Shown piece by piece: positions 1,661 to 14,862 of a DNA stretch of 14,862 nucleotides. How positions within the stretch are numbered: position 1 is the first letter of the stretch; each line of letters opens with the position of its first letter. The stretch comes from Candidatus Altarchaeum sp. (GTDB lineage: Archaea; Altiarchaeota; Altiarchaeia; Altiarchaeales; Altiarchaeaceae), in NCBI GenBank assembly GCA_018260755.1, contig JAGTWP010000037.1, forward strand, positions 1-14,862, given 5' to 3'. The position numbers and the translations under genes were made by a program. The notes under the pieces are model-generated. The model was given only the letters and a program-made list of their open reading frames with translations. It made no database searches and was not told where the DNA came from.

Positions 1661-2716
1661 TCATACCATCCTTATATTGCCCATGTTACTCCGTTCCTGC
1701 TGTCCCTGAAATTGGTTTTTGATCATATCTGGTGCAGAGATACCTGTTAAAATAGCTATCACCTCTAACTCATCACCCATTCCCTGCTCAACTCTTGCTC
1801 CAAATACTACATTTGCATCCTGTGGGAAATTTTGAGTTATCTTTTCTCCTACTTTTGTAACATCGTTTAAACTTGTATTTGGACCTCCAGTTATATGAAT
1901 TAATGCTCCTCTTCCTTTGCTAATTTCCATATCCAAAAGAGGATGATATAATACCCCCTCTGCTGCCTGCTTAATCTTATCCGGGCCTGCTCCATGTCCG
2001 ACACTGATTGTTGATATATCTCCATTCATCATAACTGCTTTAAGATCTGCAAAGTCCAGATTAATCAAACTTGGTTCTAAAATTGTCTTTGAGATTCCCC
2101 TGACAGAAGTAAATGTTACCATATCTGCAGCTGCAAATGCATCATTAATTGGCATATTCGGGGCAAATTCTAAAAGTCTATTGTTATCTATTATAACAAC
2201 TGTGTCTGCATACTCTCTCAGTTTTGCTATTCCTTCCCTTGCTTTTTGTGTTCTTGCTCTTTCCAATTTAAAAGGAAATGTTACAATTGCAACAACCAAA
2301 GCACCCATATTTTTTGCAATTTTTGCTACTATTGGCGCTGCACCTGTTCCTGTTCCTCCACCCATTCCAGCAGTCAAAAATAACAAATCAACCCCTTCCA
2401 TTTGCTGGGTAAGTAACTGGTTGCTCTCTATTGCTGCTGCTTCACCGACATCCGGAAATCCTCCGGCACCCATTCCGCCTGTGGTCTTTGCTCCAATCAA
2501 AATTTTAACCATATTTCCTTTTAAATTCATCAAGTGAACCTTGTCGGTATTTATTGCTATTAACTTTACTCCGTCATTTCCAAGACCTGCGTTTGCTAAT
2601 CTTTCAATATTATTACTTCCTGCACCACCTGCACCAACCACCATAATTTTTGGAACTGCATAAGTTCCGATATCTCCGACTATTCCAGCAGTACCTTTAA
2701 ATATTTCTTCCCCCAT
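1661..2716 (-). CDS. ftsZ: Cell-division GTPase FtsZ (single-domain paralogue)
   Basis: FtsZ is the tubulin-like GTPase that polymerises at midcell to direct division. This 351-residue protein has the expected size for an archaeal FtsZ with a very short tail. The nucleotide-binding loop GAGGAGSNN is at 28-36, the tubulin signature GGGTGTG at 119-125, and the catalytic T7 loop N219-L-D221-F-A-D224 is intact, so GTP hydrolysis between subunits should be possible. After the core (to about residue 325) only about 25 residues remain (QGQQERSNMGNIRMV at the end). It therefore lacks the long linker and the C-terminal peptide that usually bind membrane anchors. It is the last gene of a minus-strand group, 118 bp after the double FtsZ. 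A TATA-like stretch lies at 2731-2742, implying its own promoter with an extremely short leader. FtsZ identity is sure; the FtsZ1/FtsZ2 assignment is open. Confidence 0.95.
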   Translation of the reverse strand: MGEEIFKGTAGIVGDIGTYAVPKIMVVGAGGAGSNNIERLANAGLGNDGVKLIAINTDKVHLMNLKGNMVKILIGAKTTGGMGAGGFPDVGEAAAIESNQLLTQQMEGVDLLFLTAGMGGGTGTGAAPIVAKIAKNMGALVVAIVTFPFKLERARTQKAREGIAKLREYADTVVIIDNNRLLEFAPNMPINDAFAAADMVTFTSVRGISKTILEPSLINLDFADLKAVMMNGDISTISVGHGAGPDKIKQAAEGVLYHPLLDMEISKGRGALIHITGGPNTSLNDVTKVGEKITQNFPQDANVVFGARVEQGMGDELEVIAILTGISAPDMIKNQFQGQQERSNMGNIRMV

Positions 2717-2834: not shown

Positions 2835-5285
2835 TTATAAGTAGGTTATTCCCATATCATCAAAAATACTTGGCATTGAAGTACTATATCTGCTGTTTTT
2901 TCCCCCTCCAACCGGAATACTCAGTCCTTTTACACCTGTAAGTATCGCTACGACTTTAATTTTGTCCCCGAGTTTTGAGTCAATTCTTGCACCCCATACA
3001 ACATTCGCGTTCTTTTTAACACCTTTACTTATACCATCTCCGATAGCATGTGCTTCATTCAATGTCATACCCATTCCTCCGGTTATGTGAATTAATGCAC
3101 CGCTAATATCACTGTAATTCACATCTAGTAAAGGCCTGTTCAATGTTGACTCAATTGCCTGCTTAACTTTATCAGGACCATCACCTTCACCGACACAAAT
3201 CAAAGAAATTTCTTTATTTCCCATCGTTGATTTTATATCTGCAAAGTCCAGGTTTATTAAACTTGGTGTCATAATTGTCTCTGTAATACCCTGAACAGCA
3301 TCCTGAATTACTCTGTCTGCGAACATAAATGCCTCATTCATAGGCATATTTGGCACTGTAGCACGTAATTTCTCATTGTCTATTACAACAACAGTATCAC
3401 AGTACTGCATTAACTTCGCTATTCCTTCTTTTGCCTTCTCCTTTCTTGCTCTTTCAAGATTAAAAGGATATGTTACAATTCCTACAACGATTGCACCTGC
3501 CTGTTTCGCGATCTTAGCTACTACAGGTCCCGCACCTGTTCCAGTTCCACCTCCCATACCTATTCCCAAAAACACAAGTTGAGGTCTTCCTACTGCCTGC
3601 TGTAAAAGATTAAAGGATTCCTCTGCTGCTTTTTCACCAACCTCAGGATAACCGCCGGCTCCCATACCTCGTGTCATCTTTCCTCCTATTAATACTTTTG
3701 TAATAGGTACTTTATCTTCTTTAACCATATCAACTAGCGCTCTTTTATCGGTATTTATAGCAACCAGTCGGGTACTTCTCAAACATGTTTTAGAAAGTCC
3801 TGCTTCCGAAAGACGAGTAATACTGTTGCATCCTCCTCCACCAACACCTATCACAACAATTTTTGGATCTTCAAGTTTAACACCTTCTGCACCCATAATA
3901 TTTTTTAACTCTTCTTGTTCTCTCGCGAGTGCTTCCGCATCTTCAACTAAAACTGGTCTTTGCCTTGATTGTGGTTTTGGTGGTTGTACATATTCGGGTT
4001 GCGGAATATTTCCTTGTGGTTGTTGAACTCCATATCCTTGTTGCGGTTGAGTATAACCTGGCGGTTGTTGTTCCGGTTGAGAGTAGCTTCCGACTCCACC
4101 GTATCCACCTGCTGGCCATGTTGGTTTATACATCTTCTTTGGCTCTGCTTGTTGCGGCTGAAATTGCTGTTGCTGTGCTGATGATGACTGTGCAGCAATT
4201 CTACTTCCTCCTATTGGAATATTACTTCCTTCGGACAATAGATTGCTCTTTACTCCTGTTATAATTAAAACAATCTCCACTTCATCACCCATTTTATCAT
4301 TTACTCTTGCACCCCATATTACAGGAGCATTTTGACTTACCTTCTCAGTAAGCATACTTCCCGCCTTATTTGCATCATTCAGCGAAAGCGTTGAACCGCC
4401 CGTAAGGTGAATCAAAGCACCGGTTGCACCCATCGTATCAATTTCCAATAAAGGTTGATTTTTAACTGCTGCTACTGCATCCTCTATCTTCTTTGGACCT
4501 GAACCTCGTCCTACACTTATCATTGCCATTCCACCTGTCTTCATTATTGCCATAAAGTCAGCAAGATCCAAATTTATCAAACTCGGAATAAGTATAGAGT
4601 GTGTTATTCCGTCTATTGCCTTTCCGATAACATCATCTGCAATTCTAAATGCGTCATCCACAGGTAAATTTGGAGCATATTGAACTAATAAATTGTTATC
4701 CAAAAGAATAACTGTGTGAGATACCTGCTTTAACTTTTCAATACCTTCTCTTGCCTTCGTAACTCTTACACGCTCAAGTTTGAAAGGAAATGTTACAACG
4801 CTGATAACTATTGCTCCGCTATCCGTTGCAATTTTTGCTACTATTGGCGCCGCACCTGTTCCTGTTCCTCCACCCATACCTGCAGAGATAAATACGATTC
4901 GTGCTCCTTCAAGTGCCTGTGCAATATCCTGATTGCTTGCTACCGCTGCTTCTTCACCGAGCTTAGGATAACCTCCTGCACCTTGTCCGCCTGTTAATTT
5001 TGCACCTATTAAAATTTTCTTTATTCTTGGATCTTCTATCATCTGTAATTGTTTTATATCTGTATTTGATGCTATTAACTCAACCTCATCTGCAATTTTC
5101 ATTTCTGCCAATCTTCTAATTGTATTGCATCCTCCTCCTCCGACACCAACTACACATATTTTCGGATTTTTCGTAGATACTCCCTCTGCCCCTAAAATTT
5201 CAGACCTTTGTTCTGCATTTCTGCTGCTATTTGTGTCTCCTGTTTTGAAAACACCACCTATATTACCATAATTATATGGTTCCAT
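2835..5285 (-). CDS. Tandem double FtsZ: two complete FtsZ domains fused in one chain
   Basis: This 816-residue protein contains two full FtsZ units. Domain 1 spans about 41-345, with G loop GVGGGGCN (47-54), GGGTGTG (138-144) and T7 loop N238-L-D240-L-A-D243. Domain 2 spans about 473-785, with G loop GVGGGGCN (480-487), GGGTGTG (578-584) and N678-L-D680-F-A-D683. The motifs repeat at exactly 440 residues. A low-complexity Gln/Pro/Gly/Tyr linker (about 350-445) and a charged helix (446-462) join them. Both domains follow a GAEGV element (32-36, 465-469), so the duplicated unit included that pre-domain segment. The chain ends in IFDDMGITYL, resembling the partner-binding tail of FtsZ. Both active sites look intact, so the protein is probably a pre-joined protofilament dimer. 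It follows a 66-residue gene by 86 bp and precedes a third FtsZ. A TATA-like TATAAAAA (complement of about 5324-5331) may serve as its promoter. Confidence 0.93.
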   Translation of the reverse strand: MEPYNYGNIGGVFKTGDTNSSRNAEQRSEILGAEGVSTKNPKICVVGVGGGGCNTIRRLAEMKIADEVELIASNTDIKQLQMIEDPRIKKILIGAKLTGGQGAGGYPKLGEEAAVASNQDIAQALEGARIVFISAGMGGGTGTGAAPIVAKIATDSGAIVISVVTFPFKLERVRVTKAREGIEKLKQVSHTVILLDNNLLVQYAPNLPVDDAFRIADDVIGKAIDGITHSILIPSLINLDLADFMAIMKTGGMAMISVGRGSGPKKIEDAVAAVKNQPLLEIDTMGATGALIHLTGGSTLSLNDANKAGSMLTEKVSQNAPVIWGARVNDKMGDEVEIVLIITGVKSNLLSEGSNIPIGGSRIAAQSSSAQQQQFQPQQAEPKKMYKPTWPAGGYGGVGSYSQPEQQPPGYTQPQQGYGVQQPQGNIPQPEYVQPPKPQSRQRPVLVEDAEALAREQEELKNIMGAEGVKLEDPKIVVIGVGGGGCNSITRLSEAGLSKTCLRSTRLVAINTDKRALVDMVKEDKVPITKVLIGGKMTRGMGAGGYPEVGEKAAEESFNLLQQAVGRPQLVFLGIGMGGGTGTGAGPVVAKIAKQAGAIVVGIVTYPFNLERARKEKAKEGIAKLMQYCDTVVVIDNEKLRATVPNMPMNEAFMFADRVIQDAVQGITETIMTPSLINLDFADIKSTMGNKEISLICVGEGDGPDKVKQAIESTLNRPLLDVNYSDISGALIHITGGMGMTLNEAHAIGDGISKGVKKNANVVWGARIDSKLGDKIKVVAILTGVKGLSIPVGGGKNSRYSTSMPSIFDDMGITYL

Positions 5286-6024: not shown

Positions 6025-9000
6025 ATGAGGTTAGAAAAGGTCTCTGTTGAGGGATTTAAAACATTCAAAAACAGACAAAATATTGATCTACCTTATAAAT
6101 ATACTGCCATTGTAGGCCCAAACGGAAGTGGTAAAAGTAATCTAATTGATGCATTATGTTTTGTAATCGGCAGATCAAGAGGGATGAGAACAGACCGACT
6201 GGCGGAACTTATTTATAACGGCGGAACAGAGGGAAAACCATCTGATGAAGCAATTGTTTCCGCATATTTTTCCTTGGAGGATGAACAAAAACAAATTGTA
6301 AAAATAACACGAATTGTCAGGCGCGACGGAAAAACACAATATAAAATAAATTACAAAGCATCGCTGAGCGACCCTATTTTATCTAAGAATGACAAAAATA
6401 TCTCAAAAGAAAAAATCCTTGAAACAATAGGTGACAATGAGTACAATGTGCTTCTCCAAAATGACATAACAAATTTTATTGAAATGAGTCCCAAAGAGCG
6501 GAGAGGAGTTATTGATGAAATTTGCGGAATTGCCGATTACGATGAAAAGAAAACCGATGCAATAAAAGAACTTGCATCTGTTGAAGAAAAAATTTCAGGA
6601 GCAAATGTTCAGCTCAACGAGCGGCAGGAAAATTTAAAAATTTTAGAAAAAGAAAAAGAGGATGCAATAAAATTTAAAGAGGGTAAAAAGGAAATTTATG
6701 CGCTTGAGAGAGTATTTAATTACATAACTTTAAGTGAAACCGAGAAAAAAATAAATGAATACAAGATTTCAGCCAAGGGCTTGTGTGATGTTCGCGATTC
6801 GTATAAAGTCAGTGAAGGCAACATTAAAACAAAGAAGACGGAACTTGAAACAAAAATTTCGGACATCAATAAACAGCTTATTGAAAATGAAAAAAAGCGC
6901 GGAGAGTCCGATGTGTCTTTGCTGAATGCAGAACAAAGGTATTTAAAAACAGAAAATAAAAAACTCGGGGAATTAAATGAAAAAATAAATTTTGCAGTCC
7001 AAAAAAAGGACGAGTTGAATAATCTATTTACTTCCTCATCTATACAAATAAAAAATTTTTCCGGGCGAATCAAACAAATTGCTCAAATAATTGCGGATAC
7101 CAAAATTTCCGAAATTGAAAACAAAGTTATGGAATTGAAGGACAAAATTTATAACCTGAAAATAGCTGGCAGCAATGCGAGAAATAAATATGAAAATGAA
7201 AAAAATAATAGTGGTGAAAAGCGCAAAAGATGTAATTTGAACAAAGTGGAAATTTCCAAATACATTGCGAGAGAGCAGGAATTAGCGAGAGAAATAGATA
7301 ATAAAAGTTATGCCTACAAAGAAATTTTTGAGAGACATTCAAAACTCAGAAAGGAAAAATTCAACGCCGAAAAAGAGTATGAACAATTAATTGAGGGCTA
7401 TGAAAAGATAAAGGGAGAGTATGTGCGGAAAAAGGAAATTTTAAAAAATTTACGAAAAAATTTAATTGCCGACTATCTGAAAAAAGCAACAGGCGGAATA
7501 TACGGAACGGTCTCCGAATTGTGCAGAGTTTCGGATGCAAAATACAGGAAGGCAATTTACAGTGCTGCGGGAAACCGTATGGAAAATATTGTTGTTGAAA
7601 ATGAAAATATAGCAGTAAAATGTGTAAATTTGTTAAAAGCAGGAAGAATAGGAAGGGCAACATTCCTGCCGCTTAACAAAATAAATATAAATTTACCTAA
7701 TGAAAGTCCTGCTGGTTTGGGATTTGCGCGCGAGTTTTTAATTTATGATGAAAAATTTGAAAATATAATTACATACATACTGCGAAATACAATTATTGTA
7801 GAAAATCCTGATGATTTTAAACCGCTAATCGGAAGATACAGGGTGGTTTCTCTTGACGGGGACATTGCCGAAAAAGAAGGAAGTATAAGCGGCGGATTTA
7901 TAAAAGAAAGATTAAATTTTAACGAAATTTCCGATGAAATCAACGCCCTTGAAGGAAAGTTAAGTGCAGCGGAAGAAGAAATTGAAAGAGTAAAGGAAAG
8001 AAAAAATATAAGTACAGATGATTTAGAAAAAGATCTGACGAGCGTTCAGGTTGAGGTTGAAAAAATAAAGATTGAAAAAAAGACATTAACAGGATACAGA
8101 GAAGAAAAAGAAGATGAAATTAAAGTCCTTGAAGGTGAAATCAAAGCGAGTGAGGAAGAAGGGAAAGGATTATTGCTGGAAATTGAAAGAACGGAAAATG
8201 ACCTGAAAGTTTTAGAAAAAAATTTAGAAAAAACAGAAAAGGAAATAAAAGGTGAAGAATATAAGCGGATTGAAAATTTAAAAAATGAAAAGAAAAATTT
8301 AGAGATTGAACTTGCGAAGTCACAGAAGGATGCTGATTTTGCAAATACACAAATTTCCGACCTGAAAATTGATGAAATACTATCAGAAAGAAAGCAGTCC
8401 GAAAATGTGCTCAAAGAGACATCCGAAAGAATAGAAAAAATAAAACTTGCGCTGAAGAAAAAAGAGGAAGAAAATAAAGAATTAGCATTAGCAATTCAAA
8501 AACAGGAACAGGAACGGAAAAATGTCGAAGAAGAAATCGCAAGACAGAACATAGAATTAGAAAAAAATTTAAATGCGAAGGAAGAAATAAGGGCTCAAAT
8601 TGAGAAAATTTTGATTGAGGAGGGAAAATTAGAAGAGCATAAGAAAATGCTCCTGGAGAATATTGAAAAAATGAATAAGGAAACGGATAAATTGGCTGAT
8701 AATAACATGACTGAGGAAGATCTCAATAAATTTTTGACGGATAAAAATAACGAAAAAAACAGCAAGGAAGATATTATAAACAGGATAAACGAACTGAATG
8801 AAAAACTGAAGGCGATGGGAAATATAAATTTGAGAGCAATCAATAATTATGACGAAGCAAAAAAAAGTCATGATGAAATTTTTAACAAGGTTGAAACATT
8901 GAAGAATGAAAGACAGGCGATATATGATTTTATTGCATCTGTTGAAAGGAGAAAAAGAGAGGTTTTTATGGATGCCTTTGAAAAAATAAGGGCAAATTTT

Positions 9001-9399
9001 GAAGAAATTTTTAAAAAACTTACTGATAGTTATGGAACCTTAACATTAGATAATCCGAAGGATGTTTCAATATCGGGTCTGAACATTCACGCATCTTCGA
9101 AAGGAAAAAAGATTACAAAAGTTGATGCGATGTCGGGCGGAGAGAAGGCATTGACATGTGCGGCATTTTTGCTGGCAATTCAGCAGTACTCTCCAGCACC
9201 GTTTTATGTCCTTGATGAAATGGACGCATCGCTGGACTCTGAAAATTCAGTAAAAATCGCCGGATTACTAAAAGAAAGCAGCGGACAGTTTATAATGATA
9301 ACCCATAATGAAAATGTAATGAAATACGCAGATGCTGCAATCGGGGTTTCAATGCAAAACGGAATATCGCAAATAGTTGGTGTGAAGATAAATCAGTAA
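6025..9399 (+). CDS. smc: Chromosome segregation ATPase SMC
   Basis: SMC dimers entrap and compact DNA and help separate sister chromosomes. The 1124 residues follow the full SMC plan. The N-terminal head carries Walker A GPNGSGKS (31-38), and a Q-loop region around residue 145 contains LLQNDITNFIEMSP. A long coiled coil runs to about 488. The hinge (about 489-625) starts at TGGIYGTVSEL. A second coil runs to about 985, and the C-terminal head carries signature SGGEKAL (1037-1043), Walker B YVLDE (1061-1065) with catalytic Glu1065, D-loop SLD and the ITHNEN switch. The signature motif reads MSGGEK instead of the usual LSGGEK. It is slightly shorter than typical (about 1170-1190), consistent with shorter coiled-coil arms. 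The scpA and scpB partners are not in the window. It is transcribed away from the ftsZ group and meets tgtA tail to tail, with 44 bp between them. Confidence 0.97.
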   Translation: MRLEKVSVEGFKTFKNRQNIDLPYKYTAIVGPNGSGKSNLIDALCFVIGRSRGMRTDRLAELIYNGGTEGKPSDEAIVSAYFSLEDEQKQIVKITRIVRRDGKTQYKINYKASLSDPILSKNDKNISKEKILETIGDNEYNVLLQNDITNFIEMSPKERRGVIDEICGIADYDEKKTDAIKELASVEEKISGANVQLNERQENLKILEKEKEDAIKFKEGKKEIYALERVFNYITLSETEKKINEYKISAKGLCDVRDSYKVSEGNIKTKKTELETKISDINKQLIENEKKRGESDVSLLNAEQRYLKTENKKLGELNEKINFAVQKKDELNNLFTSSSIQIKNFSGRIKQIAQIIADTKISEIENKVMELKDKIYNLKIAGSNARNKYENEKNNSGEKRKRCNLNKVEISKYIAREQELAREIDNKSYAYKEIFERHSKLRKEKFNAEKEYEQLIEGYEKIKGEYVRKKEILKNLRKNLIADYLKKATGGIYGTVSELCRVSDAKYRKAIYSAAGNRMENIVVENENIAVKCVNLLKAGRIGRATFLPLNKININLPNESPAGLGFAREFLIYDEKFENIITYILRNTIIVENPDDFKPLIGRYRVVSLDGDIAEKEGSISGGFIKERLNFNEISDEINALEGKLSAAEEEIERVKERKNISTDDLEKDLTSVQVEVEKIKIEKKTLTGYREEKEDEIKVLEGEIKASEEEGKGLLLEIERTENDLKVLEKNLEKTEKEIKGEEYKRIENLKNEKKNLEIELAKSQKDADFANTQISDLKIDEILSERKQSENVLKETSERIEKIKLALKKKEEENKELALAIQKQEQERKNVEEEIARQNIELEKNLNAKEEIRAQIEKILIEEGKLEEHKKMLLENIEKMNKETDKLADNNMTEEDLNKFLTDKNNEKNSKEDIINRINELNEKLKAMGNINLRAINNYDEAKKSHDEIFNKVETLKNERQAIYDFIASVERRKREVFMDAFEKIRANFEEIFKKLTDSYGTLTLDNPKDVSISGLNIHASSKGKKITKVDAMSGGEKALTCAAFLLAIQQYSPAPFYVLDEMDASLDSENSVKIAGLLKESSGQFIMITHNENVMKYADAAIGVSMQNGISQIVGVKINQ

Positions 9400-11381: not shown

Positions 11382-12740
11382 ATGAAATTTAAAATTTTAA
11401 CCTACGGATGTTCGATGAATAAGGCAGACAGCGAATGCATTGCAGGGATAATTAAGGAAAAATTTAAATCTGATGCTGAAATTAAGGAATATTTTGTAGA
11501 TGAGGTAAAAAATTTTGATATTGATAAAGAAAAGATAAATTCCGATAATAATTTTCTAATTATAAATACATGCATAGTCAAACAACCAACGGAAAACAAA
11601 ATTTTTGATTTAATGAGAAAGATAGAGAAAAAAAGAGAAAATGAAAAATGTCTGAATGTAATAGTGAGTGGTTGTCTGCCTGCTGCATACCCTGAAATTT
11701 GCAGGAAATTTAAATTTTCGTTCATCGGAACAAATGTTTCTGATATAAACAAGGCAATTGATGAGGCAATTGAAGGGAGAAAATTTGTAAAAATAGAAAA
11801 GCAGGAGGATAAACTGTGTATTCCGAAATTTTCGTTTAATAAATTTATATCCATAATTCCGATTTCTGAAGGGTGCGTTGGAAATTGTTCATACTGCTCA
11901 ACAAAATTAGCAAGACAAAATTTGACATCTTATAAGGAAGAGAATATAATCAAAACAATAAAAAATGCAATAAAGTACGGTGCAAAGGAAATTTACATAA
12001 CAGGTCAGGATACAGGATGCTACGGATTGGATATTGACACAAATATCGTAAGTTTGCTTGAAAAAATTTCCGAAATTGAAGGAAAATTTAAAGTAAGGGT
12101 TGGAATGATGAATCCGGATTTTGCATTAAAATTTTTAGATGAATTGATTGAAATATTTAAACATCAAAAATTTTACAGGTTCATCCACATTCCGGTTCAG
12201 AGCGGAAGCAATGCCGTTTTGAGGGATATGAAAAGAAATTATTGTGTTGAGGATTTTATCGGGGTTGCAGAGAAATTTAAATGTATTGATGCAAGCATTT
12301 CAACAGACATCATTGTTGGCTTTCCAACCGAGACAGACGATGATTTTAAATGCAGTGTTGACTTAATTAATAAAATCAAACCGGAATTTTTAAATTTGTC
12401 AAAATTTTATGTAAGGAAGGGAACACTGGCGGAAAGGTTTATAAGAAATAAGCAATGGACTTATGATACAAGAATTGCAAAAGAACGGTCGTTGTTAATT
12501 TCCGGGATTTTCAGGGAAATTTCAAAGGACAATAATAAAAAATGGCTTAACTGGGAAGGGGAAATTTTGACAGATGAAATTGAGAACGGCATGCTTATAG
12601 GGAGAAATTTTACATATAAAAAAATTCATATAAAGGATAAAAAGGTTCAATCCGAATTATTAGGAAAATTTGTCCATTGTAGAATTATTAAAGCAGGGGA
12701 AATTCTGGAAGGGGAAATTTTAGGAAGTGAAATTAATTAA
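11382..12740 (+). CDS. mtaB: tRNA-t6A37 methylthiotransferase, e-MtaB/CDKAL1 type
   Basis: This is a radical-SAM enzyme with two iron-sulfur clusters. It adds a methylthio group to N6-threonylcarbamoyladenosine at tRNA position 37 (ms2t6A), which stabilises decoding of A-starting codons. The 452 residues contain three domains. The N-terminal cluster domain has Cys10 (YGCSMNK), Cys64 (INTCIVKQPTENK) and Cys98 (SGCLP). The radical-SAM domain has C165-x3-C169-x2-C172 (GCVGNCSYCSTKLAR), GQDTGCYG, HIPVQSGSN and DIIVGFPTETDDDF. The TRAM RNA-binding domain lies at about 385-452. The NTC-V-K-PTE and YC-TK-AR patterns mark the archaeal/eukaryotic branch, not bacterial MiaB. It is divergent from tgtA and is followed after 20 bp by the cas6 remnant, which it may co-transcribe. 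Confidence 0.95.
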   Translation: MKFKILTYGCSMNKADSECIAGIIKEKFKSDAEIKEYFVDEVKNFDIDKEKINSDNNFLIINTCIVKQPTENKIFDLMRKIEKKRENEKCLNVIVSGCLPAAYPEICRKFKFSFIGTNVSDINKAIDEAIEGRKFVKIEKQEDKLCIPKFSFNKFISIIPISEGCVGNCSYCSTKLARQNLTSYKEENIIKTIKNAIKYGAKEIYITGQDTGCYGLDIDTNIVSLLEKISEIEGKFKVRVGMMNPDFALKFLDELIEIFKHQKFYRFIHIPVQSGSNAVLRDMKRNYCVEDFIGVAEKFKCIDASISTDIIVGFPTETDDDFKCSVDLINKIKPEFLNLSKFYVRKGTLAERFIRNKQWTYDTRIAKERSLLISGIFREISKDNNKKWLNWEGEILTDEIENGMLIGRNFTYKKIHIKDKKVQSELLGKFVHCRIIKAGEILEGEILGSEIN

Positions 12741-12760
12741 GTTTAATTATTTATTTTAAA

Positions 12761-13093
12761 ATGCGACTTTTAATAAAAGTAAGGAATGCAAAAGAGCAGG
12801 ATTATGATTTGAAGTACTATCACAAATTACAGGGCTCTATATACAATTTAATAAAAGATACGGAGTACGGCGAACTTCATAATCACGAAGGATATAAATT
12901 TTTCTCTTTTTCAAACATTTTTCCGATGAAAACAGGTAAAGGTGATGATAGGAATCTCATGCTTGCATCACCAAGCGAGAAATTTATTGATGTGGTTTTG
13001 GATAAATTAAGCGGGAGAAAAGATAATTTATTGCACATAGGGGAATACGAACTTGAACTCTGTAGCATAAAAAAAATAAAACTGAAATATTGA
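12761..13093 (+). pseudogene. cas6: N-terminal half of CRISPR endoribonuclease Cas6, frameshifted remnant
   Basis: The 110 residues match the N-terminal ferredoxin-like domain of Cas6, which cuts CRISPR precursor RNA into guides. The start MRLLIKV, the segment YYHKLQGSIYNLI (residues 19-31), the block GYKFFSFSNIFP (45-56), DDRNLMLASPS and the following helix are all typical. Intact Cas6 is roughly twice this length. The frame ends at TGA just after a run of eight A (13069-13076). Slipping by one base in that run would continue as KTEILKSACTPSSPMKLTS and on to VVLK before a stop at 13159, which resembles the next part of a Cas6. The C-terminal RNA-binding half with its glycine-rich loop is absent. 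No repeat array and no other cas gene is visible. It lies 20 bp after mtaB. The family call is fairly secure; non-functionality is inferred. Confidence 0.7.
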
Positions 13094-13202
13094 AATCTGC
13101 TTGTACTCCCTCTTCCCCGATGAAACTTACCAGTTTGAATAGAACCAGTGTGGTATTGAAATGAATGGAAATACATTTTGTGTGTAACATAAAAAAGGGT
13201 AA

Positions 13203-13295
13203 ATTTTACCTAAATTAAAATTTCATAATGTTGCAAAACTTTATGGTTATCAAGAAGCAGCAGCAGCAGCAGCAATAGAAATAGACCAGGAATAA
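13203..13295 (+). other. Short open-frame relic with GCA triplet run
   Basis: A frame opened by a stop at 13200-13202 and closed by TAA at 13293-13295 encodes NVAKLYGYQE, six alanines and IEIDQE. It looks like the C-terminal end of a protein but has no in-frame ATG or GTG. The alanine run comes from six tandem triplets (13256-13273), the only such microsatellite in the window. ATGTTGCAAAA at 13228-13238 matches 11 bases of the dispersed repeat copy at 217-236. It is probably gene debris; I do not recognise the source. Confidence 0.3.
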
Positions 13296-13305
13296 TTTAT
13301 CATTT

Positions 13306-14418
13306 TCACAAAATATACCCTGTCGCATCCTCAATTAAGCCAAATCCCGAACCTAAATTATTCGTATCAATATCAAGGCCTTCCATAGATATATCCGTAA
13401 CCTCACATAAGTATTCAATATAAGTAAACATTCCGATTTTTTCAAATATAAATTTATGCGAAGCATATGCCTTTAAAGAAATAAAGACCTTGCCTTCATT
13501 TGCAGTAATGAGCCATTCCCGGTTCTTTTTTCCGGATTTCTTTATATTTAAATTTTTGAAAATATATTTCTTGTCTTTCGTTTTATCGTAAAATTCAAGT
13601 ATAGAACGTATCTTATGCTCAAATATTAATATTTCTATCCTGGGCTCAAAGTAAGTCAATACGGAACCATTTGAGAATACAATTCTTCCCCAGTACCACG
13701 GAACAAAAGGACCGATTACAACAACTTTCTGAACATAGCATTTTCCTGTGAAATTTTCTCCGTTTAATGTCCCGGTAAAATCAAAATACAGGTTTATTAA
13801 AGCAAAACCGGCAAATAACTTAAAATAGTTGTTGAACTCAAAGGACTTTGAATTATCTTCTGCTCTTGTTATTTTGAAATTTGCAATTTCTTTGTTTCTT
13901 TTGGATAAAATAAAGGAATAATCGGGAAATTTTCCATTATAGCGGACATTTACCTTATTTTGTCGGGCAGAAACCATGAGCCCGTCGGAATTTATTGATA
14001 TTGAACATTCGTCTTCCAGGATTAAATTTTTCCTGTCAGTATAACCCCATACGGTTATGTAACCGTTTCTTCCTTCGCATTTTCTGTTTATTATCTCTTT
14101 ATGGTTAATTTTTATGGACTCAGAGGTATGTCCGAACATTATGAGAAGTTGTCTTTTGTCTTCGGGCTTTGTTGCTCCGTAAGTCATAAACCAGTATTCT
14201 TTTCCGGTGGGGGGTAAATTTTCAAAACAAAAAAACATACGGTCAATTTCCTGAGCGGACTTTTTTGTTTTTTTAAGTTCTATCAGGGAATTATACTTTG
14301 AACTAATTTCGTCTATTTTTTCTTTTAAGTACATTTTTTCAATACCTGACAAAATTTGGACATATTTATCCAGAGTATCAAACGGATAATCCGTTATTTT
14401 TTTATTTTCATCAGCCAT
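13306..14418 (-). CDS. Uncharacterised 370-residue beta-rich protein, weakly AttH/CrtC (lipocalin)-like
   Basis: I cannot assign a function. After a charged N-terminal helical region (about 1-60) the protein is rich in alternating strands. There are two tryptophan-bearing segments, GKEYWFMTYG (72-81) and WYWGRIVFSNGSVLTYFEPR (241-260), preceded by VQKVVVIGPFVP. The pairing of an early substrate-entry strand with a W-x-W, Phe, Asn-Gly-Ser, Thr-Tyr block recalls the AttH/hydroxyneurosporene-synthase (CrtC) superfamily, whose members have a double lipocalin-like barrel and bind hydrophobic ligands. This resemblance is weak and from memory. There is no signal peptide or membrane segment, so it should be cytosolic. 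It runs convergently towards the cas6 remnant and stands 83 bp downstream of the DUF357 gene, perhaps in one transcript. Confidence 0.7.
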   Translation of the reverse strand: MADENKKITDYPFDTLDKYVQILSGIEKMYLKEKIDEISSKYNSLIELKKTKKSAQEIDRMFFCFENLPPTGKEYWFMTYGATKPEDKRQLLIMFGHTSESIKINHKEIINRKCEGRNGYITVWGYTDRKNLILEDECSISINSDGLMVSARQNKVNVRYNGKFPDYSFILSKRNKEIANFKITRAEDNSKSFEFNNYFKLFAGFALINLYFDFTGTLNGENFTGKCYVQKVVVIGPFVPWYWGRIVFSNGSVLTYFEPRIEILIFEHKIRSILEFYDKTKDKKYIFKNLNIKKSGKKNREWLITANEGKVFISLKAYASHKFIFEKIGMFTYIEYLCEVTDISMEGLDIDTNNLGSGFGLIEDATGYIL

Positions 14419-14501
14419 TTTAAATTTATTTAAAAATATCCAAAAGTAAGCGAAGTCACCTTAAAAATTTAATCAGGTATTAAATTTTTTTTCCCTCAAA
14501 T

Positions 14502-14744
14502 TTATTTCAAAAATTTTATAAATTTTCCTGCATCGAGCCACCCTTCCGCATATTCAAGTGCTATGATCGCCCCGATAAAATTTCCTTTGCTGTAAAAATA
14601 TAACGCATCATTGTAATAATTGAGCGCCATTTCGTAAAATTTTCTACTTTCTTCTGTATTTACCTTCAAGGTTAAATTTTCAAACAGGACTTTTGCTTTG
14701 TTCAAATATCTTTCTGCCCTTTCTTTTATTTCATCATTACACAT
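14502..14744 (-). CDS. DUF357 family small helical protein
   Basis: The 80-residue protein matches the archaeal DUF357 family of unknown function. Helix one carries IKERAERYLNKAKVLFENL. The family's diagnostic C-terminal pair of helices follows: YYNDALYFYSKGNFIGAIIALEYAEGWLDAGKFI, given here only as its start (residues 49-67) and its end EYAEGWLDAG. The A-x2-YA-GWLDAG ending is typical. I chose the ATG at 14744 because it gives the usual family length. An in-frame ATG at 14858 would add 38 residues of unrelated composition. Family members often neighbour translation or DNA-handling genes in archaea, but no role is established. It precedes the 370-residue gene on the same strand. Confidence 0.8.
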   Translation of the reverse strand: MCNDEIKERAERYLNKAKVLFENLTLKVNTEESRKFYEMALNYYNDALYFYSKGNFIGAIIALEYAEGWLDAGKFIKFLK

Positions 14745-14862
14745 TTTTTTATTTTGGATATGATTGATGTTAAGAACTAAACTCCGCATTTTTACACCTG
14801 CACTCACGTTTAACCATTTCTTTTCAAACACTTTAAATTTTTGCGAAGTTAAGGTCAATTAT

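Follow-up and report, generated by a model that had tools for sequence, protein, structure and literature searches.

A covalently joined pair of FtsZ2 domains in the archaeal genus Altiarchaeum

Introduction

FtsZ usually carries one FtsZ domain per chain. A gene in a 14,862-nucleotide stretch of archaeal DNA (contig JAGTWP010000037.1; the whole stretch is called the window) raises the question of whether two such domains can be joined in one protein and, if so, what kind of division ring that protein would build. The gene lies at positions 2835 to 5285 of the minus strand and encodes an 816-amino-acid FtsZ2a-FtsZ2b fusion; the window comes from a Candidatus Altiarchaeum metagenome-assembled genome (MAG) of 1.32 Mb that is 85% complete. 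The original prediction, made from the nucleotide sequence, described a tandem FtsZ with both active sites intact and knew of no well-described natural case. Our full-text search of the open-access literature agreed, as it returned no description of a tandem FtsZ, although an earlier mention elsewhere is possible. The observation is real and unreported in the literature searched: the FtsZ domains are of the ordinary kind, their arrangement in one chain is newly described, and a partner protein has been lost. The two domains per open reading frame, found in four genomes, depart from the usual architecture, and one domain per chain is not a criterion of homology.

Results

Architecture of the fused gene

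The open reading frame contained no internal stop codon, and its product matched Pfam Tubulin (PF00091, 277.9 bits) and FtsZ_C (PF12327, 177.1 bits) in two stretches each and the TIGR00065 ftsZ model in two stretches (667.3 bits, cut-off 295.2); the product comprises two complete FtsZ domains. Pfam and phmmer matches placed domain A at residues 40-348 (positions 4242 to 5168), where an AlphaFold model was also obtained, and domain B at residues 473-787 (2925 to 3869), all on the minus strand. The GTP-binding motif GGGTGTG occupies residues 138-144 in domain A (4854 to 4874) and 578-584 in domain B (3534 to 3554), and the T7 loop reads NLDLAD at residues 238-243 (4557 to 4574) and NLDFAD at residues 678-683 (3237 to 3254). 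The motifs are therefore offset by exactly 440 residues (138 vs. 578; 238 vs. 678), as had been predicted, and their Gly/Thr and Asp positions, together with N238 of the domain A loop (N238, D240, D243), were invariant in four genomes, as were the whole GGGTGTG motifs and the whole domain B loop.

The linker between the domains (residues 349-472; positions 3870 to 4241, minus strand) is rich in Gln and Pro (31% of the 123 amino acids between the domain cores), and it closes, over approximately its last 30 residues, with a predicted helix that is conserved and precedes domain B. A length of about 95 residues had been predicted for it, which roughly describes the Gln/Pro-rich part; the core-to-core stretch, with the helix included, is 123 residues. 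The linker is of low complexity, and its length class (123-139 amino acids across the four genomes) is conserved rather than its sequence. We estimate that a disordered linker of 123 residues would have a mean span of roughly 9 nm.

Conservation within the genus

The same in-frame fusion was present in all four Altiarchaeum genomes, with 84-87% identity and lengths of 816 amino acids in the window, 832 in Altarchaeum sp. HURL_140, 836 in Altiarchaeales archaeon A3 and 828 in Altarchaeum sp. CG2_30_32_3053. Both fused domains are under purifying selection: pairwise ratios of nonsynonymous to synonymous substitution rates (dN/dS) among the four genomes were 0.14-0.18 for domain A, 0.08-0.14 for domain B and 0.27-0.38 for the linker, in which every length change was a multiple of three. 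A stop codon or frameshift in the linker would have meant two separate genes; none was found, and the question could be answered without raw reads. Every genome is a MAG (completeness of 85, 87, 65 and 87%), yet an assembly or sequencing artefact that joined two genes has practically no chance of being correct, because four separate MAGs share the in-frame fusion, the selective constraint and the in-frame linker changes.

Active sites, structure models and a third FtsZ

A third FtsZ gene (FtsZ2c, 351 amino acids; positions 1661 to 2716, minus strand) lies 118 nucleotides downstream of the fusion on the same strand. It is complete, matches Pfam and TIGR00065 (341 bits), adjoins the fusion in all four Altiarchaeum genomes and was absent from the original prediction. 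In every genome of the genus, domain A, domain B and the third FtsZ had the full set of nucleotide-contact motifs (T1 to T6, the AF..AD helix and T7). By these motifs both active sites of the fusion appear intact, as had been proposed, with the qualification that domain A has two private changes. The Asp equivalent to D185 of Methanocaldococcus jannaschii FtsZ is His in each of the four A domains (D185H) and Asp in all 73 background FtsZs, and Met stands in place of the basic residue that follows the T7 aspartates (K to M).

The AlphaFold model of domain A had a good FtsZ fold (predicted local distance difference test score, pLDDT, of 83; predicted template modeling score, pTM, of 0.85). The fold comparison, made with the domain A model, gave M. 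jannaschii FtsZ as the closest PDB structure (TM score of 0.87-0.89, 43-44% identity). This nearest solved fold (1FSZ, 1W5A, 2VAP) is, unlike the fusion, a single domain and belongs to the FtsZ1 clade.

FtsZ2 ancestry and the absence of FtsZ1

Trees were built from all FtsZs of the phylum, with the FtsZ1 side marked by M. jannaschii FtsZ1 and OdinFtsZ1 (9V7V) and with no named FtsZ2 reference. Domains A and B and the third FtsZ fell together in the FtsZ2 clade (support 100/99), with the FtsZ2s of other Altiarchaeota. A grouping of domain A with FtsZ1 was rejected by the approximately unbiased (AU) test (p-AU 0.0025). A fusion of one FtsZ1 with one FtsZ2 domain was thus ruled out, for domain A by the AU test and the tree and for domain B and the third FtsZ by the tree. 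About 1 change per site separates the three domains from one another, so that a recent tandem duplication is unsupported, and no branching order was singled out among them (A+B, p 0.21; B with the third FtsZ, p 0.42).

An FtsZ1 query was positive in 261 of 297 archaea and in none of the four Altiarchaeum genomes at the same threshold, and a PF00091 scan of the Altiarchaeum genomes gave no FtsZ1 either. From genome completeness we estimate the probability of its absence from all four by chance at about 0.1% if losses are independent. Judged from its gene content, Altiarchaeum has lost its usual partner FtsZ1.

The fusion has a gene for SMC (6025 to 9399, plus strand) as its divergent neighbor, an arrangement seen in the window genome (G000) and in the Altiarchaeum genome G003. 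In G005, a complete genome from a different family in this class, SMC and FtsZ1 form the divergent pair; this one comparator suggests that the FtsZ2 array came to occupy the place of FtsZ1. SMC and FtsZ1 were non-adjacent in other members of the phylum where both were seen. Also beside SMC, G003 contained two fragments similar to the C terminus of TgtA (L085, 2685-3041 and 3662-3820); at this place the window carries a single, complete TgtA gene.

Distribution of the fusion and of adjacent ftsZ2 genes

Within the 29 Altiarchaeota genomes the fusion was limited to the genus Altiarchaeum, and other members had single-domain FtsZs. The distribution survey covered archaea. When 394 archaeal genomes were searched with the fused protein, matches across both domains occurred only in the four Altiarchaeum genomes; the survey was fully listed to E 1e-90, and 282 of the genomes had no FtsZ match that strong, which makes this distribution a lower bound. 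No long open frame was found among the matches listed for the FtsZ1 query in the 297 archaeal genomes. The search for other archaeal two-domain FtsZ chains that had been called for thus gave none outside the genus down to that threshold.

Two candidates for a second fusion, an 882-amino-acid open frame in genome G122 and open frames of 731 and 675 amino acids in genome G056, were rejected when read directly. Each consisted of separate neighboring ftsZ2 genes with stop codons between them; the open-frame lengths reported for protein queries run through stop codons. Unfused neighboring ftsZ2 pairs are common in other archaea (e.g., G116, G076, G096, G136, G034, G122 and G056, of which the last two were checked directly), and the fusion could therefore have arisen by loss of one stop codon. 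In G056 (L129, 5945-8071) two ftsZ2 genes lie end to end in the same frame, one stop codon apart; this could be what the state just before fusion looks like. The G122 locus (L128, 5531-6910) encodes a 459-amino-acid FtsZ2 with a long, Asn/Gln-rich N-terminal extension beside a separate 376-amino-acid FtsZ2.

A single candidate anchor for two domains

In other Altiarchaeota, both FtsZ1s and FtsZ2s begin with the short, helix-like motif M(D/E)(S/A)IV..A and have their own C-terminal tails. Domain A has neither this start nor its own C-terminal tail. The fused chain ends in FDDMGITYL (2838 to 2864, minus strand), a candidate SepF-binding motif of the whole chain, in which GITYL was identical in the four genomes and the C-terminus reads (M/L)GITYL throughout. 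The archaeal FtsZ tail that binds SepF centers on GID (PMC8178401); GID itself is absent from the fusion, and the position and type of its peptide are similar. This SepF-type peptide occurs only after domain B, which leaves one tail for two GTPase domains.

SepF genes were detected in the Altiarchaeum genomes G000 (two over the cut-off), G001 and G003, and none was found in G002 (65% complete). The G000 paralogs, in an archaeon that lacks FtsZ1, lie at C14:2249-2473 and C45:25721-25921, of which the latter gave the weaker match (28.5 bits against a cut-off of 27).

Discussion

A proposed fixed pair as the unit of the ring

In Haloferax, FtsZ1 is a scaffold and the first ring is made of it, whereas FtsZ2 is recruited by SepF (PMC7613921); OdinFtsZ2 of Odinarchaeota binds SepF via its tail (PMC12583498). 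The Altiarchaeum fusion resembles these FtsZ2s in that both of its domains are complete FtsZs that contain the GTPase and T7 motifs, and its chain end has a candidate SepF-type peptide. In contrast to them, it has two domains, a linker of 123-139 amino acids, one tail for both domains and no FtsZ1 partner. As in the Haloferax ring, distinct FtsZ types and SepF occur in one cell, but Altiarchaeum has three FtsZ2 paralogs, two of them fused, in place of an FtsZ1/FtsZ2 pair.

We propose that the fused protein is a covalent heterodimer of two long-diverged FtsZ2 paralogs that would polymerize in a GTP-dependent manner in the division ring, with the ratio of A to B set at 1:1 by the fusion. Because domain A lacks the N-terminal helix motif and has no C-terminal peptide for anchoring itself, its attachment to the membrane would depend entirely on B, and the peptide at the end of B is predicted to bind SepF. 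After the loss of FtsZ1, the fusion and the third FtsZ2 may together have replaced the pair of FtsZ1 (scaffold) and FtsZ2 (constriction). The evidence leans, by a small degree, toward a fixed 1:1 FtsZ2a-FtsZ2b unit, anchored to SepF via B, that with the third FtsZ2 took the place of the FtsZ1/FtsZ2 pair. That the fusion sets stoichiometry or links protofilaments, as was first suggested, is plausible, and whether A and B sit in one filament or in two linked ones is left free by the long, flexible linker, which fits both. We advance more tentatively, as less likely than not, the stronger form: an obligate covalent FtsZ heterodimer that serves as the building block of a Z-ring without FtsZ1, its FtsZ2 domains either alternating in one filament or tying two together, and each pair sharing one SepF anchor.

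The polymerizing unit of alpha/beta-tubulin is a fixed, non-covalent pair of two diverged GTPase paralogs. The Altiarchaeum protein is likewise a fixed pair of diverged GTPase paralogs; unlike tubulin, its pair is covalent and flexible, and any alternation of the two along a filament is hypothetical.

Several points weigh against the proposed replacement of the FtsZ1/FtsZ2 pair by an anchored, fixed unit. The changes in domain A (D185H and K to M after T7) could signal reduced activity. The whole-chain AlphaFold model (pLDDT 51) is too poor for judging contacts between the domains, the SepF binding is deduced from a short motif with GIT instead of GID, and replacement at the FtsZ1 locus draws on one comparator, G005. 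Internal starts or proteolysis may separate the halves. In favor of the proposal, ftsZ is transcribed in A. hamiconexum (PMC12133352) and 73% of its cells were reported to have FtsZ rings (PMC4500143), but neither study says which FtsZ gene is transcribed or in the ring.

Alternative readings

The fusion might merely equalize the amounts of A and B, the halves being ordinary FtsZs that are tethered flexibly and assemble by the familiar rules. The abundance of unfused neighboring ftsZ2 pairs in archaea, which makes loss of a stop codon an easy origin, is consistent with this possibility, and we regard it as rather unlikely, but still worth serious weight: the fusion and its linker have been kept in every genome of the genus, and the want of an anchor in domain A implies that the tether serves at least for anchoring.

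The chain may instead be a built-in cross-linker, with A and B in separate protofilaments that the linker ties in the manner of a covalent Zap protein; the filament of B domains would lie at the membrane, and that of A domains behind it. Zap-type cross-linkers (ZapA, ZapD) are separate proteins, whereas here the link would lie inside the FtsZ chain. The low-complexity, Gln/Pro-rich linker is far longer than joining neighbors in a filament needs, and the domains are deeply diverged, each being conserved in its own way. A long linker allows such a geometry without demanding it, the tails of ordinary FtsZs are likewise disordered, and no lateral contact was predicted; we consider this arrangement unlikely.

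It is improbable that the cell mostly uses separate FtsZs, produced by cutting of the chain or by additional synthesis of B from an internal start. A possible start codon (ATG or TTG) does occur just before B in all four genomes, within NI(M/L)GA(E/D)G, but it encodes Met in two genomes and Leu in the other two. The real starts of the gene have no clear ribosome-binding site, no known cleavage site is present, and the amino acid sequence of the helix preceding B is conserved (dN/dS mostly 0.14-0.23).

Implications

If the stronger form, the obligate covalent heterodimer, is correct, it would be the first FtsZ with a built-in pair as the polymerizing unit. With two joined FtsZs and no FtsZ1, the division ring of Altiarchaeum would be built by rules unlike those of other known cells. 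The fusion touches on the number of FtsZs that a ring requires, the reason why two are retained in most archaea and the need for single subunits in filaments; for each of these questions a genus with no FtsZ1 and two joined copies of FtsZ2 provides a natural experiment. The protein is expressible in standard laboratory hosts and can be split, and each active site can be mutated singly, which makes alternating-site GTP hydrolysis, the effect of linker length and the use of one anchor for two subunits testable. It further provides a testable path by which FtsZ1 could have been lost from a lineage with reported FtsZ rings.

Other genes in the window and further tubulin-family proteins

Downstream of the FtsZ array, the window contains two minus-strand open reading frames of 132 and 185 amino acids (191 to 589 and 754 to 1311) with no Pfam match. 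A 110-amino-acid open reading frame at 12761 to 13093 (plus strand) matched the N-terminal region of Cas6 below the threshold (24.1 bits, cut-off 27), and no repeat array was found near it at window positions 12700 to 14862.

CetZ-like proteins have been mentioned in Altiarchaeota (PMC9871819). Genome G000 encodes at least four further divergent proteins of the tubulin superfamily, with 376-443 amino acids and Pfam Tubulin scores of 32-79 bits; their genes lie at L078 6068-7240 and 10066-11295 (C41), L079 136-1266 (C78) and L080 4647-5978 (C45). Two of these genes share one cluster with genes for beta-propeller, CBS and metal-binding-motif membrane proteins. In another Altiarchaeota genome (G027, C33:2250-2804), a divergent tubulin-family match lies within a 720-amino-acid open frame.
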